Part shown: piece after piece, positions 36,785 to 38,989 of the stretch
Position numbering within the stretch: the stretch's first letter is position 1
Layout of the letters: the number at the start of each line of letters is the position of its first letter
Source: Bradyrhizobium sp. in8p8
GTDB taxonomy: Bacteria > Pseudomonadota > Alphaproteobacteria > Rhizobiales > Xanthobacteraceae
DNA: 64,000 bases
Direction: 5' to 3'
Assembly (NCBI RefSeq): GCF_000426845.1
Contig: NZ_AUGD01000002.1
Span: forward strand, 1-64,000
Notes under the pieces: generated by a model
Database searches by the model: none
The model's input: only the letters and a program-made list of their open reading frames with translations
Told to the model about the DNA's origin: nothing
Translations under genes and position numbers: made by a program

Positions 36785-36790
36785 CTTCTC

Positions 36791-36875
36791 GTCATTGCGA
36801 GCGAAGCGAGGCAATCCAGGACTGTCGCCGCGGAGCCAGTCCGGATTGCTTCGTCGCTTCGCTTCTCGCAATGAC
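36791..36875. repeat. Palindromic intergenic repeat, copy 2
   Basis: Outer arms GTCATTGCGAG and CTCGCAATGAC are perfect inverted copies; inner arms are GGCAATCCAGG and CCGGATTGC. The element fills the gap between convergent genes and would form a long hairpin in either transcript. Same family as 15103-15183. Confidence 0.9.
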
Positions 36876-36885
36876 AAGGATGGAC

Positions 36886-38082
36886 CTACGCCACGCGCCG
36901 TGCCGCGCCGGCCTTGGTCAAGATCCCGTCGAGACAATCGACCATCTCGGCGATCTGCGCCTTCGTGACGTTCAGCGCCGGCATGAAGCGCAGCGTGTCG
37001 ACTTGCGGCGCGTTCAGGAGCACGCCGGCCTCGAACGCCTGCGCGACGATGCCGGGCGCGATTGGCAGCTTGAGGTCGAGCGCGAGCAGGAGGCCGCGCC
37101 CCCGCACGCCGCCGAGGCCGTGCCGGGCCGAGACTTTCTGCAACTCGCTTTCGAGCAAGAGGCCGGTCTCGGCGACAGCCTTCAGGAAGTCTGGCTTGCT
37201 GACCTCCTGAAGCACCGCCAGGCCCGCCGCGCACATGATCGGATTGCCGTTGAAGGTGCCGCCCTGGTCGCCGTGCTCGAAGCAGGAGGCGCGTTCGGTC
37301 GCGAGCAGGGCGGCGAGCGGCACGCCGCCGCCGATTCCCTTGCCGAGCGTGATGATGTCCGGCGCGATGCCCGTGTGCTCGTAATGGAAGAGTTTTCCGG
37401 TCCGGCCCATGCCGGTCTGGATCTCATCGAAAATGAGCAGCATGCCGTGCGCCTGCGTCAGCGCGCGCAGCTCCTGCAGGAACTGATCGCTCGCCGGCCA
37501 TACGCCGGATTCACCCTGGATCGGCTCAAGCATGACGGCGACGGTGTTGTCGTTGATCAGCGCTTCGACCGAAGCGATGTCGTTGAGCTTCGCCTTCTTG
37601 AAGCCGGCGACCTTCGGCTCGAACAGCGGCTCGAACGCCTTCTTGCCCGAAGCCGACATCGTTGCCAGCGTCCTTCCATGGAACCCGCCTTCGAAGCTGA
37701 TGATCTCGAAGGCGCCGCCTTTGTGCACGCTGCCATATTTCCGCGCGAGCTTGATCGCGCCTTCATTGGCTTCCCCGCCGGAATTGGCAAAGAACACCTG
37801 GTCGAACGCACTGTTCTCGACGAGCGCCTGCGCCAGCTTCAGGCTCGGTTCGTTGTAGAAGGCCGGGCTCGGTGTCAGCAGCCGCCTGGCCTGCGCGCCA
37901 AGCGCCTCAGCGACCGCGGGCGGGGAGTGGCCGAGACAGTTCACGGCCCAGCCCTGCACGAAATCGAGATAGCGCTTGCGGCTGTCGTCCCAGAGGTAGG
38001 AGCCGGCGCCGCGGACGAATACGGCCTTGGGCCGTGCGGTGATGTCCATCAACGCGTCATACGGATGGGTGGCGGTGGTCAT
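36886..38082 (-). CDS. argD: Acetylornithine/ornithine-type class-III aminotransferase (ArgD-like)
   Basis: The start is ATG 38082, preceded by AGAGGAGTTCG; 398 residues. A PLP-dependent enzyme of the ArgD/OAT group: [47 protein letters not shown] and the Schiff-base Lys in [15 protein letters not shown]. ArgD makes N-acetylornithine in arginine synthesis. No argF follows on this strand (a repeat and a convergent gene do), so it may be a second ArgD-like paralogue. A terminator hairpin and an Arg-rich short ORF lie upstream, hinting at arginine control. Confidence 0.8.
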
Positions 38083-38125
38083 GTCGAACTCCTCTGGGGC
38101 GGGTGGAAAAGGGACGCAAAAGCAA

Positions 38126-38154
38126 GAAGGCCGCACTTTGCGGGTGCGGCCTTC
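38126..38154 (-). terminator. Terminator-like hairpin in the leader of the argD-like gene (possible attenuator)
   Basis: On the minus strand GAAGGCCGCAC, a 7-base loop and GTGCGGCCTTC form an 11-bp stem, followed by TTGCTTTTG. It lies 27 bases after the stop of an Arg-rich short ORF and 44 bases before the argD-like start. It may be the terminator of an attenuator or simply the terminator of the upstream gene at 38348-38989, whose stop is 194 bases away. Confidence 0.75.
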
Positions 38155-38180
38155 TCGAAAACTGGCTGAGCTCTAATGCT

Positions 38181-38270
38181 TCAGCGGCGTCGTCGGACAT
38201 GGCGCAACCCATCATCGTCGCGGGTGCGACGACGGAAAGCTGCGCGGCGGTGGGTCCGAGAATTGATCAT
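38181..38270 (-). CDS. Putative Arg-rich leader peptide (29 residues)
   Basis: An ATG-to-TGA frame on the minus strand starting MINSRTHRR and ending in four consecutive Arg codons just before the stop. Twelve of 29 residues are Arg, using CGC, CGT, CGA and CGG. It is followed by the hairpin at 38154-38126 and then the argD-like gene, the layout of a transcription-attenuation leader. AGGGA lies eight bases before the ATG. GC-rich DNA readily gives Arg codons, so chance is not excluded, and no convincing antiterminator was found. Confidence 0.45.
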   Translation of the reverse strand: MINSRTHRRAAFRRRTRDDDGLRHVRRRR

Positions 38271-38278
38271 GGGGCGCG

Positions 38279-38308
38279 TCCCTACAGCTGAACGTGAGGG
38301 CTTGTCAA
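38279..38308 (-). promoter_or_regulatory. Candidate sigma-70-type promoter for the argD leader
   Basis: The minus strand holds a perfect TTGACA (38308-38303) and, about 16-17 bases on, TGTAGG (38287-38282) as a weak -10 box. Initiation near 38275 would place the leader ATG almost at the transcript's 5' end, so the exact start or the box assignment may be off. Confidence 0.4.
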
Positions 38309-38347
38309 GCGGAGGTTTCTCGGGATACCCGCCGGTCCGTGGGTCGA

Positions 38348-38989
38348 TCATGTCGGACGCGCGGCTTCCTCGGCATCCTCTTCGCCCCAATCGGCGTCTG
38401 CAATCGCGGTGTCGATGAGCTCGCCGCGCATCAGCTTGAGCGGTGAATTCCAGTACAGTGCGATGTTGTGGAACGGGTCGGTCAGCACCTTGAACACCCA
38501 GACGAGGCCGGTCGTGACGTCGCGCGTGACGAAGAGCTGGAGCATGCGCGCAAGTCCGCCGCCGATGCCGATCGCAAGCCAGAGCGTGCCGACATGCCGG
38601 ATGAAGTCGAGGCGAGTGGCCGGCGCATCGAACAGGCCGAACAGCGTCGGATACAGGTAGAGCGCGATCGGCGCGCTGCCCCACACCAGCAGCAGCACGA
38701 TCTTGCGGGTCTGGTTGTAGCCGACCTTGATCGCTTCCTTGTAGTCGTTGCTGACGTCGTTGACGGCGTCATAGCCGTTCGGCTCAAAGAAGAAGTGGCC
38801 GGTCTGCCGCGTCAGCATCGCGAGCCAGCCGACGATGCCGGCGAGCGCCGGGTCCTTGAACAGAAGGGCGTAGCTGGCGAGGAAGATGACGGCGCTGATC
38901 AGGTGCAGCGTCTGGTTGACCGTGCTCTGGTGGTAGAAGCGATAGTCGTCGAAGCGCTGCGTGCGCAGCATGTCCGGAAGGCGGCTCAT
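38348..38989 (-). CDS. Mpo1-like/DUF962-like integral membrane protein
   Basis: A 213-residue protein with about four membrane segments. The N-terminal part YHQSTVNQTLHLISAV ... TRQTGHFFFEPN recalls the conserved H-x-N-x-LH ... GHFFxE-N pattern of the Mpo1/DUF962 family, whose yeast member is an iron-dependent dioxygenase that alpha-oxidises 2-hydroxy fatty acids. The motif spacing differs and the C-terminal half (VGTLWLAIGIGGGLARMLQLF ...) is longer than in that family, so this is an analogy. Start MSRLPDMLRTQRFDDYRF at 38989. It lies upstream of the argD leader on the same strand. Confidence 0.55.
   Translation of the reverse strand: MSRLPDMLRTQRFDDYRFYHQSTVNQTLHLISAVIFLASYALLFKDPALAGIVGWLAMLTRQTGHFFFEPNGYDAVNDVSNDYKEAIKVGYNQTRKIVLLLVWGSAPIALYLYPTLFGLFDAPATRLDFIRHVGTLWLAIGIGGGLARMLQLFVTRDVTTGLVWVFKVLTDPFHNIALYWNSPLKLMRGELIDTAIADADWGEEDAEEAARPT

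Follow-up and report, generated by a model that had tools for sequence, protein, structure and literature searches.

The argD gene of Bradyrhizobium sp. in8p8, predicted to encode an acetylornithine transaminase, is preceded by a short arginine-rich open reading frame (ORF) and a GC-rich hairpin, and the question raised by this locus is whether the leader adjusts argD expression to the supply of arginine. The locus was analyzed within a window of 64,000 nucleotides, the whole stretch of DNA examined here. An arginine attenuator had been proposed in a first-pass annotation, and the idea is supported with corrections: the leader unit was detected in 188 of 195 Bradyrhizobium genomes, and a competing antiterminator is predicted. 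Judged from the sequence, the leader is very probably an arginine-sensing transcription attenuator that acts through the translating ribosome.

On the minus strand, positions 38308 to 38082 carry, in this order, TTGACA, a TGTA core, an ATG, a 29-codon ORF, a hairpin, a ribosome site, and argD. The features are as follows.

38303..38308, minus strand: -35 box TTGACA, found no more than 60 nt before the ATG in all 88 loci with an intact leader ORF
38283..38286, minus strand: TGTA core within the -10 region, separated from the -35 box by 16 nt
38181..38270, minus strand: leader ORF of 29 codons plus TGA, MINSRTHRRAAFRRRTRDDDGLRHVRRRR (ATG 38270-38268, TGA 38183-38181), intact in 88 of 90 loci
38226..38234, minus strand: central Arg run CGT-CGT-CGC, codons 13-15, conserved as Arg; proposed control codons
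38194..38258, minus strand: hairpin 1:2 (pause or anti-antiterminator), CGGAC..CGTCGTCGC / GCGACGATG..GTCCG; predicted fold
38189..38210, minus strand: antiterminator 5' strand, GGGTTGCGCC (38210-38201) and TCCGACGAC (38197-38189); predicted, conserved pairing
38165..38185, minus strand: small hairpin P2, GCTGA with TCAGC, predicted at the tip of the antiterminator
38142..38162, minus strand: antiterminator 3' strand, GTTTTCGAGA and GGCCGCACCC; predicted pairing
38118..38157, minus strand: predicted intrinsic terminator, stem 38154-38144 / 38136-38126 and T tract 38125-38118; hairpin present in 90 of 90 loci
38089..38095, minus strand: argD ribosome-binding site AGAGGAG, read from the sequence
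36886..38082, minus strand: argD, encoding a PRK03715-type acetylornithine transaminase (ATG 38082-38080; NF002985, 643 bits)

The elements described in the first-pass annotation were confirmed on the minus strand: the TTGACA box, the 29-codon ORF with 12 Arg codons of which the last four encode RRRR, the 11-bp GC-rich hairpin with its T-rich stretch, and the ribosome site before an ArgD-like gene. The terminator stem of 11 bp can be extended to 14 bp, its 5' arm begins approximately 26 nt past the leader stop, and the T tract TTGCTTTT (38125-38118) is interrupted by GC. Several elements overlap. The central Arg run also serves as the 5' side of the apical stem in hairpin 1:2, the P2 5' arm GCTGA overlaps the leader stop codon, and GGCCGCACCC is shared by the antiterminator 3' strand and the terminator 5' arm. 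The argD product scored 643 bits against a cut-off of 568 for NF002985 (PRK03715) and also exceeded the cut-off of TIGR00707. The upstream gene (38348-38989) was weakly Mpo1-like (PF06127, 22.7 bits, below the cut-off of 24). On the other side of argD, a long imperfect palindrome, cgtcattgcgagcgaagcgaggcaatcc..ggattgcttcgtcgcttcgcttctcgcaatgac, which resembles a dispersed repeat, was observed at 36790-36875, between argD and a convergent gene.

The promoter spacing was nearly fixed across the 88 loci with an intact leader ORF. The spacing between the -35 and -10 elements was 16 in 87 of these loci, and the distance from TGTANN to the ATG was 10 nt in 80 of them, as it was in the window. Transcription would thus probably start at the leader ATG or a few nucleotides upstream of it. 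This closeness had been regarded as a weak point; the closeness itself stands, and by analogy it fits leaderless translation. In the available text of one study, 192 start sites of B. japonicum coincide exactly with the start codon (PMC4842269), and the S. meliloti trpL leader is described as leaderless in the available part of another (PMC10117765). The -10 region of the window did not match the TGnTA motif that the former text gives for leaderless B. japonicum mRNAs (PMC4842269).

Whether the leader ORF is translated was assessed from its pattern of change. Insertions and deletions within the ORF were of 3 nt, whereas those between the stop codon and the hairpin were not. No in-frame stops occurred in 44 aligned rows, compared with 55 and 35 in the other two frames. 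The three positions of the central run were Arg in 43, 44, and 43 of the 44 rows (130 of 132 cells), with synonymous changes among them, and the amino acid changed freely at alignment codons 2-4, 7, 8, 10-13, and 17-18. The motif DD..R(H/R)VRR was also conserved in the genus leaders. Set against this, the pN/pS ratio was approximately 1.0 and was not lower in the reading frame (1.04 in frame 0 vs 0.87 and 1.28 in the other frames). Much of the leader stretch is probably held by base pairing.

Conservation of the unit was determined across Bradyrhizobium. The PRK03715-type argD was present in 187 of 195 genomes (E <= 1e-100), and the upstream DNA was read for 90 loci (30 + 60). The first-pass annotation had expected the Arg run, the stop, and the hairpin to be kept while the flanks vary, and this was observed, with the ORF intact at 88 loci and the hairpin pattern kept at all 90. 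Three Arg residues were found in the central run of 85 of the 88 intact loci. The two remaining ORFs were one cut off by a contig end (L072) and one with a TAG at leader codon 3 (L084, genome G149). At the latter, argD, the Arg codons, and the hairpins were all kept, and the TAG could be a sequencing error, a recent loss, or a sign of an altered start.

A covariance model (R1) trained on 44 Bradyrhizobium sequences, including that of the window, matched 188 of the 195 genomes at E <= 1e-6, with 44 of the matching loci being the model's own, and the unit was present in 181 of 183 good-quality genomes. All seven genomes that lack the R1 unit belong to the eight that lack this argD; two of the seven (G032 and G033) are at least 94% complete, and the other five are 67-81% complete. 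The eighth, G097 (75% complete), has the R1 unit and no argD match. No second copy of the leader was found in the genome of in8p8, where the next R1 scores were 21.9 bits and below, vs 166.3 for the leader; the best secondary place (L115) was rejected, being the end of another gene by reading. Two or three R1 matches each were observed in several other genomes (G001, G024, G041, G051, G070, G074, G099, G177, and others). A leader-terminator relic severed from argD was observed on the Bradyrhizobium plasmid pNK6a (AP014659.1; L031:4001-4122). The 8-kb locus contains no ArgD match. It has lost both the ATG and the Arg run but keeps most of the terminator stem, and this relic is a natural control.

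The stretch from 38280 to 38118 folded at -72.8 kcal/mol, vs -50.4 kcal/mol (sd 3.8) in dinucleotide shuffles (z = -5.96), and none of 200 shuffles folded as low. Two competing folds were predicted. The terminated form consists of hairpin 1:2 (38258-38194), P2 (38185-38165), and the terminator, and 98.2% of its cells were paired across the alignment. Four of its pairs were changed on both sides, a number reached in 0 of 500 shuffles; further pair types occurred in numbers not above those of the shuffles. Within this form, the terminator stem was 100% paired with both-side changes at 2 of 11 pairs, and all five P2 pairs were invariant in the 44 sequences, which speaks neither for nor against pairing. 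In the alternative fold, GGGTTGCGCC and TCCGACGAC pair with GTTTTCGAGAAGGCCGCACCC, with P2 at the tip, and 95.7% of the cells of the antiterminator and P2 were paired across the 44 sequences. The first-pass annotation had found no convincing antiterminator. One is now predicted and conserved, and it formed in all 52 sequences of the stall model described below; what stands of the objection is that no antiterminator covariation above shuffles was detected in the 44 sequences.

The effect of a stalled ribosome on these folds was modeled with 52 sequences, comprising the 44 genus sequences and eight from five other genera. The model assumes a footprint of 10 nt past the A-site codon, ignores upstream RNA, and ends the RNA in the terminator loop. 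With a ribosome on any central Arg codon, a mean of 0.89 of the terminator-arm bases was sequestered in the model, and all 52 sequences reached at least 0.7. When the ribosome was placed on the first codon of the final four, the modeled value was 0.22, and at the stop it was 0.32, the antiterminator forming in 0 of 52 sequences in either case; later stall positions leave less free RNA to pair, which bears on this comparison. In shuffled controls, the arm was sequestered in 35 of 260. The final four Arg codons, taken as the sensor in the first-pass annotation, were rejected in that role, as modeled stalls there never freed the antiterminator and, in 17 of 44 rows, the third of them encodes not Arg but Gln, His, or Leu. 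The model therefore points to the central CGT-CGT-CGC, and not the final RRRR, as the likely control codons. The final RRRR would mainly encode the antiterminator strand.

A codon-by-codon scan of seven sequences showed the arm sequestered from codons 2-7 to codons 16-17, with the effect fading at codon 18; in L081, at most 7 of 10 arm bases were sequestered. Among the ribosome-free nascent folds of the seven, at least two (L002 and L081) favored the antiterminator over hairpin 1:2, and termination as the untranslated default is therefore unsure; the window's own ribosome-free fold gave hairpin 1:2 and the termination form. When arm and segment were compared in a simple duplex test, 4 of 18 loci gave values of at most 0.05; the terminator was wrongly picked at L185, and the window itself, taken with a shorter arm, gave 0.67.

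From these elements, the following mechanism can be proposed. Transcription would begin at or just upstream of the leader ATG. When arginyl-tRNA is plentiful, the ribosome would pass CGT-CGT-CGC and reach the stop codon, where it would cover or have passed the antiterminator strand; the terminator (38154-38126) would then form, and the RNA would end upstream of argD. When arginyl-tRNA is scarce, the ribosome would stall at codons 13-15 (also at 8-9 and 17) and prevent hairpin 1:2, and the freed GGGTTGCGCC..TCCGACGAC would pair with the terminator 5' arm, allowing RNA polymerase to enter argD. The signal would be the charging of tRNA and not free arginine, and termination in the cell, ribosome stalling, and a response to arginine are expected on the same grounds.

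Beyond the genus, this argD was found in 20 of 198 genomes of the same family, representing 7 of 47 genera (E <= 1e-130), and in 13 of 347 genomes of the order (E <= 1e-115). Eight loci from other genera (L099-L106) carried the same leader type as Bradyrhizobium, and a ninth (L107) carried a different leader containing RRRRRARR. With the L107 protein as query, 8 of 385 genomes of the class were matched, two of them from the genus of the window. Each of seven further alphaproteobacterial loci (L124-L127, L129, L131, and L132) had a short ORF with RR, RRR, or RRRR. In a scan of named genomes, the best 80 loci among the matches listed were retained, mostly from Betaproteobacteria. After removal of eight loci of the Bradyrhizobium type, 72 remained, and the addition of the eight alphaproteobacterial loci brought the set used for comparison to 80. 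An ATG-initiated ORF with at least RRR preceded the PRK03715-type argD at 45 of these 80 listed loci, of which 36 are betaproteobacterial, eight alphaproteobacterial, and one gammaproteobacterial by record titles or handles. Many of the 45 are close kin and do not represent 45 independent events. Examples are MNRIQSELRRRRSPLP in Paraburkholderia, MLNLANRNRRRRSPAALARAR and MKKLNTLTNITSLRRRRS in Alphaproteobacteria, and ..NFLRRRREQF in Oceanospirillaceae. In other families, the leaders thus differ apart from an Arg run.

No RRR leader was found at the other 35 of the 80 listed loci. Five of them (L124, L133, L155, L184, and L193) had an RR leader by eye, and 30 carried no RR label, notably those from Alcaligenaceae, Azonexaceae, and Polynucleobacter; one of these 30 (L173) also has an RR ORF. 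The concern that Arg codons arise by chance in GC-rich DNA was not borne out: under a stricter ORF rule than the one that gave 45 of 80, RRR ORFs were present at 32 of the 80 listed loci, compared with a mean of 5.2 and a maximum of 11 in 40 dinucleotide shuffles made with that same rule. On the antisense strand, RRR ORFs occurred at 15 of the 80 listed loci.

Codon usage within the runs was biased. Among the 170 Arg codons in the 45 runs from the matches listed, 86 were CGC, 48 CGA, and 36 CGT, and none was CGG, AGA, or AGG; in the corresponding argD genes, 153 of the 821 Arg codons are of these last three kinds. The first codon of the run was CGA in 44 of these 45 listed cases, vs 28 of the 821 Arg codons in argD. 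CGU, CGC, and CGA are read by one inosine-containing tRNA (tRNA-Arg, ICG). The CGA-first bias and the lack of CGG and AGR codons suggest that a single tRNA species acts as the sensor, a proposal that can be tested directly.

A tree was built from 95 ArgD proteins and a very distant outgroup, without L131 and L197; its bootstrap had not settled, which applies to the support values given here. The 17 Bradyrhizobium-type rows formed one group (98/99) that adjoins two betaproteobacterial MAGs (98/95). In one of these two, L133, argD is preceded by a short RR leader and a GGCCGCA terminator with an 8-bp antiterminator match. The Arg-run label required 11 changes on the tree, vs a mean of 31.6 when shuffled, a low count that near-copies favor. 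This distribution is consistent with the Arg-run leader being an old trait that was lost several times. At four alphaproteobacterial loci (L125, L126, L127, and L129), no T-tract terminator was seen by eye, and in single-sequence folds a hairpin pairs with the argD ribosome site. These folds suggest that translation control may take the place of termination there.

At nine of the 25 loci submitted to Rfam (L143, L152, L172, L174, L178, L179, L187, L189, and L199), the family RF02884 (BcKCsr7, Burkholderia sRNA 7) was matched at 91.6-166 bits against a gathering cut-off of 59. All nine are from Burkholderia, Paraburkholderia, Caballeronia, or Trinickia, and the matches lie directly before a PRK03715-type argD, with an Arg-run leader (e.g., MNRIQSELRRRRSPLP) and a terminator. 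Bc_KC_sr7, also named RIT34 and nc5U30, is described in the available part of a review as conserved and expressed, with coordinates that span 147 nt and, in that part, no function given (PMC10987360). In a B. cepacia strain (L172), the stretch that opens with the ATG and closes with the T tract measures 153 nt, and transcription that begins close to the ATG and ends at the terminator would give an RNA of approximately this size. The link is made through name, sequence, and position; on these grounds, BcKCsr7 is probably an attenuator product and not a free sRNA, and the family, which Rfam types as 'Gene; sRNA' and not as a leader, would thereby gain a probable function. The window itself differs from RF02884 in sequence and fold and shares the argD type downstream. 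No gathering-level match to RF02884 was found in the window, and none appeared among the E <= 5 matches of 38000-38420. At the gathering level, the Rfam scan of the window returned tRNA only, and the terminator hairpin gave sub-threshold matches to Thr_leader and STnc320.

Taken together, we lean towards the view that an arginine attenuator is ancestral to the PRK03715 branch in Alphaproteobacteria, Betaproteobacteria, and some Gammaproteobacteria. It would rely on a run of CGC, CGT, and CGA codons only, usually opened by a rare CGA and read by one tRNA-Arg, with its output swapped between a terminator, in most lineages, and a hairpin that masks the ribosome-binding site, in others, and BcKCsr7 and its equivalents would be its terminated products and not free sRNAs. 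It would amount to a natural experiment: the sequences of the leader, the terminator, and the antiterminator are replaced over time, and the run of arginine codons stays.

In the genome of in8p8, the second match above the argD cut-off was the canonical argD (G000:C1:836957-838099), and no comparable leader was seen by eye before it, before argG or argJ, or before a weak, sub-cut-off argC-like match. Upstream of argG there is a 20-codon ORF with one RR, and the gene that precedes argJ harbors an out-of-frame ORF containing RRR. Upstream of the canonical argD (L108), a strong hairpin and a T-rich run were observed right after a promoter-like stretch, where a leader ORF is not evident; this is possibly another form of premature termination.

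Three other explanations can be set against attenuation by arginyl-tRNA. SpeFL and the fungal arginine attenuator peptide act by nascent-peptide arrest, and an Arg-rich peptide in the exit tunnel might likewise sense free arginine or ornithine here, the stalled ribosome then setting the fold. The leader peptide is indeed Arg-rich, with DD..R(H/R)VRR conserved in the genus, and the available text on ORF34/speF describes an arginine response through two consecutive Arg codons (PMC6386406). However, little is common beyond the Arg run outside the Bradyrhizobium-type group, base pairing can account for the conservation of the C-terminal codons, and a starvation logic suits a biosynthetic gene; we regard arrest as very unlikely. 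A second proposal is that the terminated leader RNA or its Arg-rich peptide acts in trans, as rnTrpL and peTrpL do, with attenuation secondary or absent. The peptide peTrpL is reportedly a precedent for a leader peptide with its own role in trans. The expression of BcKCsr7 in Burkholderia, as listed in the available text (PMC10987360), would agree with such a role, but the leader peptides differ among lineages and match no Pfam family, and the R1 unit is missing where argD is missing; a function in trans as the main one is very unlikely.

The hairpin could also do no more than terminate transcription of the upstream gene (38989-38348), the Arg ORF being a by-product of GC-rich structured DNA. 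That gene runs in the same direction and ends approximately 190 nt before the hairpin, and GC-rich DNA does yield some Arg runs, as the 15 antisense cases among the 80 listed loci illustrate. Against this, a conserved promoter lies between the upstream gene and the hairpin, and, in many families, this gene type is again preceded by a leader with an Arg run. Moreover, the end of rimO lies directly upstream at L098-L103 and L105 (by eye), and leader and hairpin persist below it, which weakens the possibility, raised at the outset, that the hairpin serves gene 38348-38989 alone. We consider this explanation extremely improbable.

Ribosome-mediated attenuation in response to arginine is thus the preferred reading, and it can be compared with known systems. 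The classical attenuated amino-acid operons are trp, his, leu, ilv, thr, and phe, and to our knowledge arginine is absent from the list of classical leader-peptide attenuators. Like these operons, the argD leader combines an ORF in which several codons for the end product follow one another, a predicted intrinsic terminator (here with an interrupted T tract) between the leader and the gene, a predicted, mutually exclusive antiterminator, and a downstream gene that makes the sensed amino acid (NF002985, TIGR00707). Under the assumed footprint, a modeled stall at the control codons frees the antiterminator and a ribosome at the stop codon blocks it. By prediction, the leader would therefore behave like a classical amino-acid attenuator. 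It differs from the classical cases in that arginine is sensed, the leader ORF crosses the antiterminator strand, and the stop lies within P2. Among the titles and abstracts covered, in which subscription journals are thinly represented, no arginine attenuator before argD is described; the locus offers a testable candidate in a genus of soil symbionts.

Other leaders share single features with this one. The carA gene of Pseudomonas is arginine-related and has a leader peptide for which attenuation was proposed; in the available text, this attenuation is tied to pyrimidines and an Arg run is not mentioned (PMC4997734). The speF leader ORF34/SpeFL of Enterobacteria has consecutive Arg codons, as here, but according to the part of the source available it contains DUF2618 and controls ornithine decarboxylase, not an arginine-biosynthesis gene, via Rho, mRNA decay, and masking of the ribosome-binding site (PMC6386406). 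Neither DUF2618 nor a downstream speF was found at the present locus, where the gene is argD and the leader peptide matched 0 Pfam families, DUF1127 included. An alphaproteobacterial attenuator candidate with tandem control codons is uORFC-8-2 before cysS in Rhodobacterales, which, in the available description, concerns cysteine and a tRNA synthetase gene, unlike the argD leader (PMC8632094). Finally, the trpL leader of S. meliloti has, as far as its available description goes, a leaderless or near-leaderless start (PMC10117765), as is proposed here for the argD leader of Bradyrhizobium.
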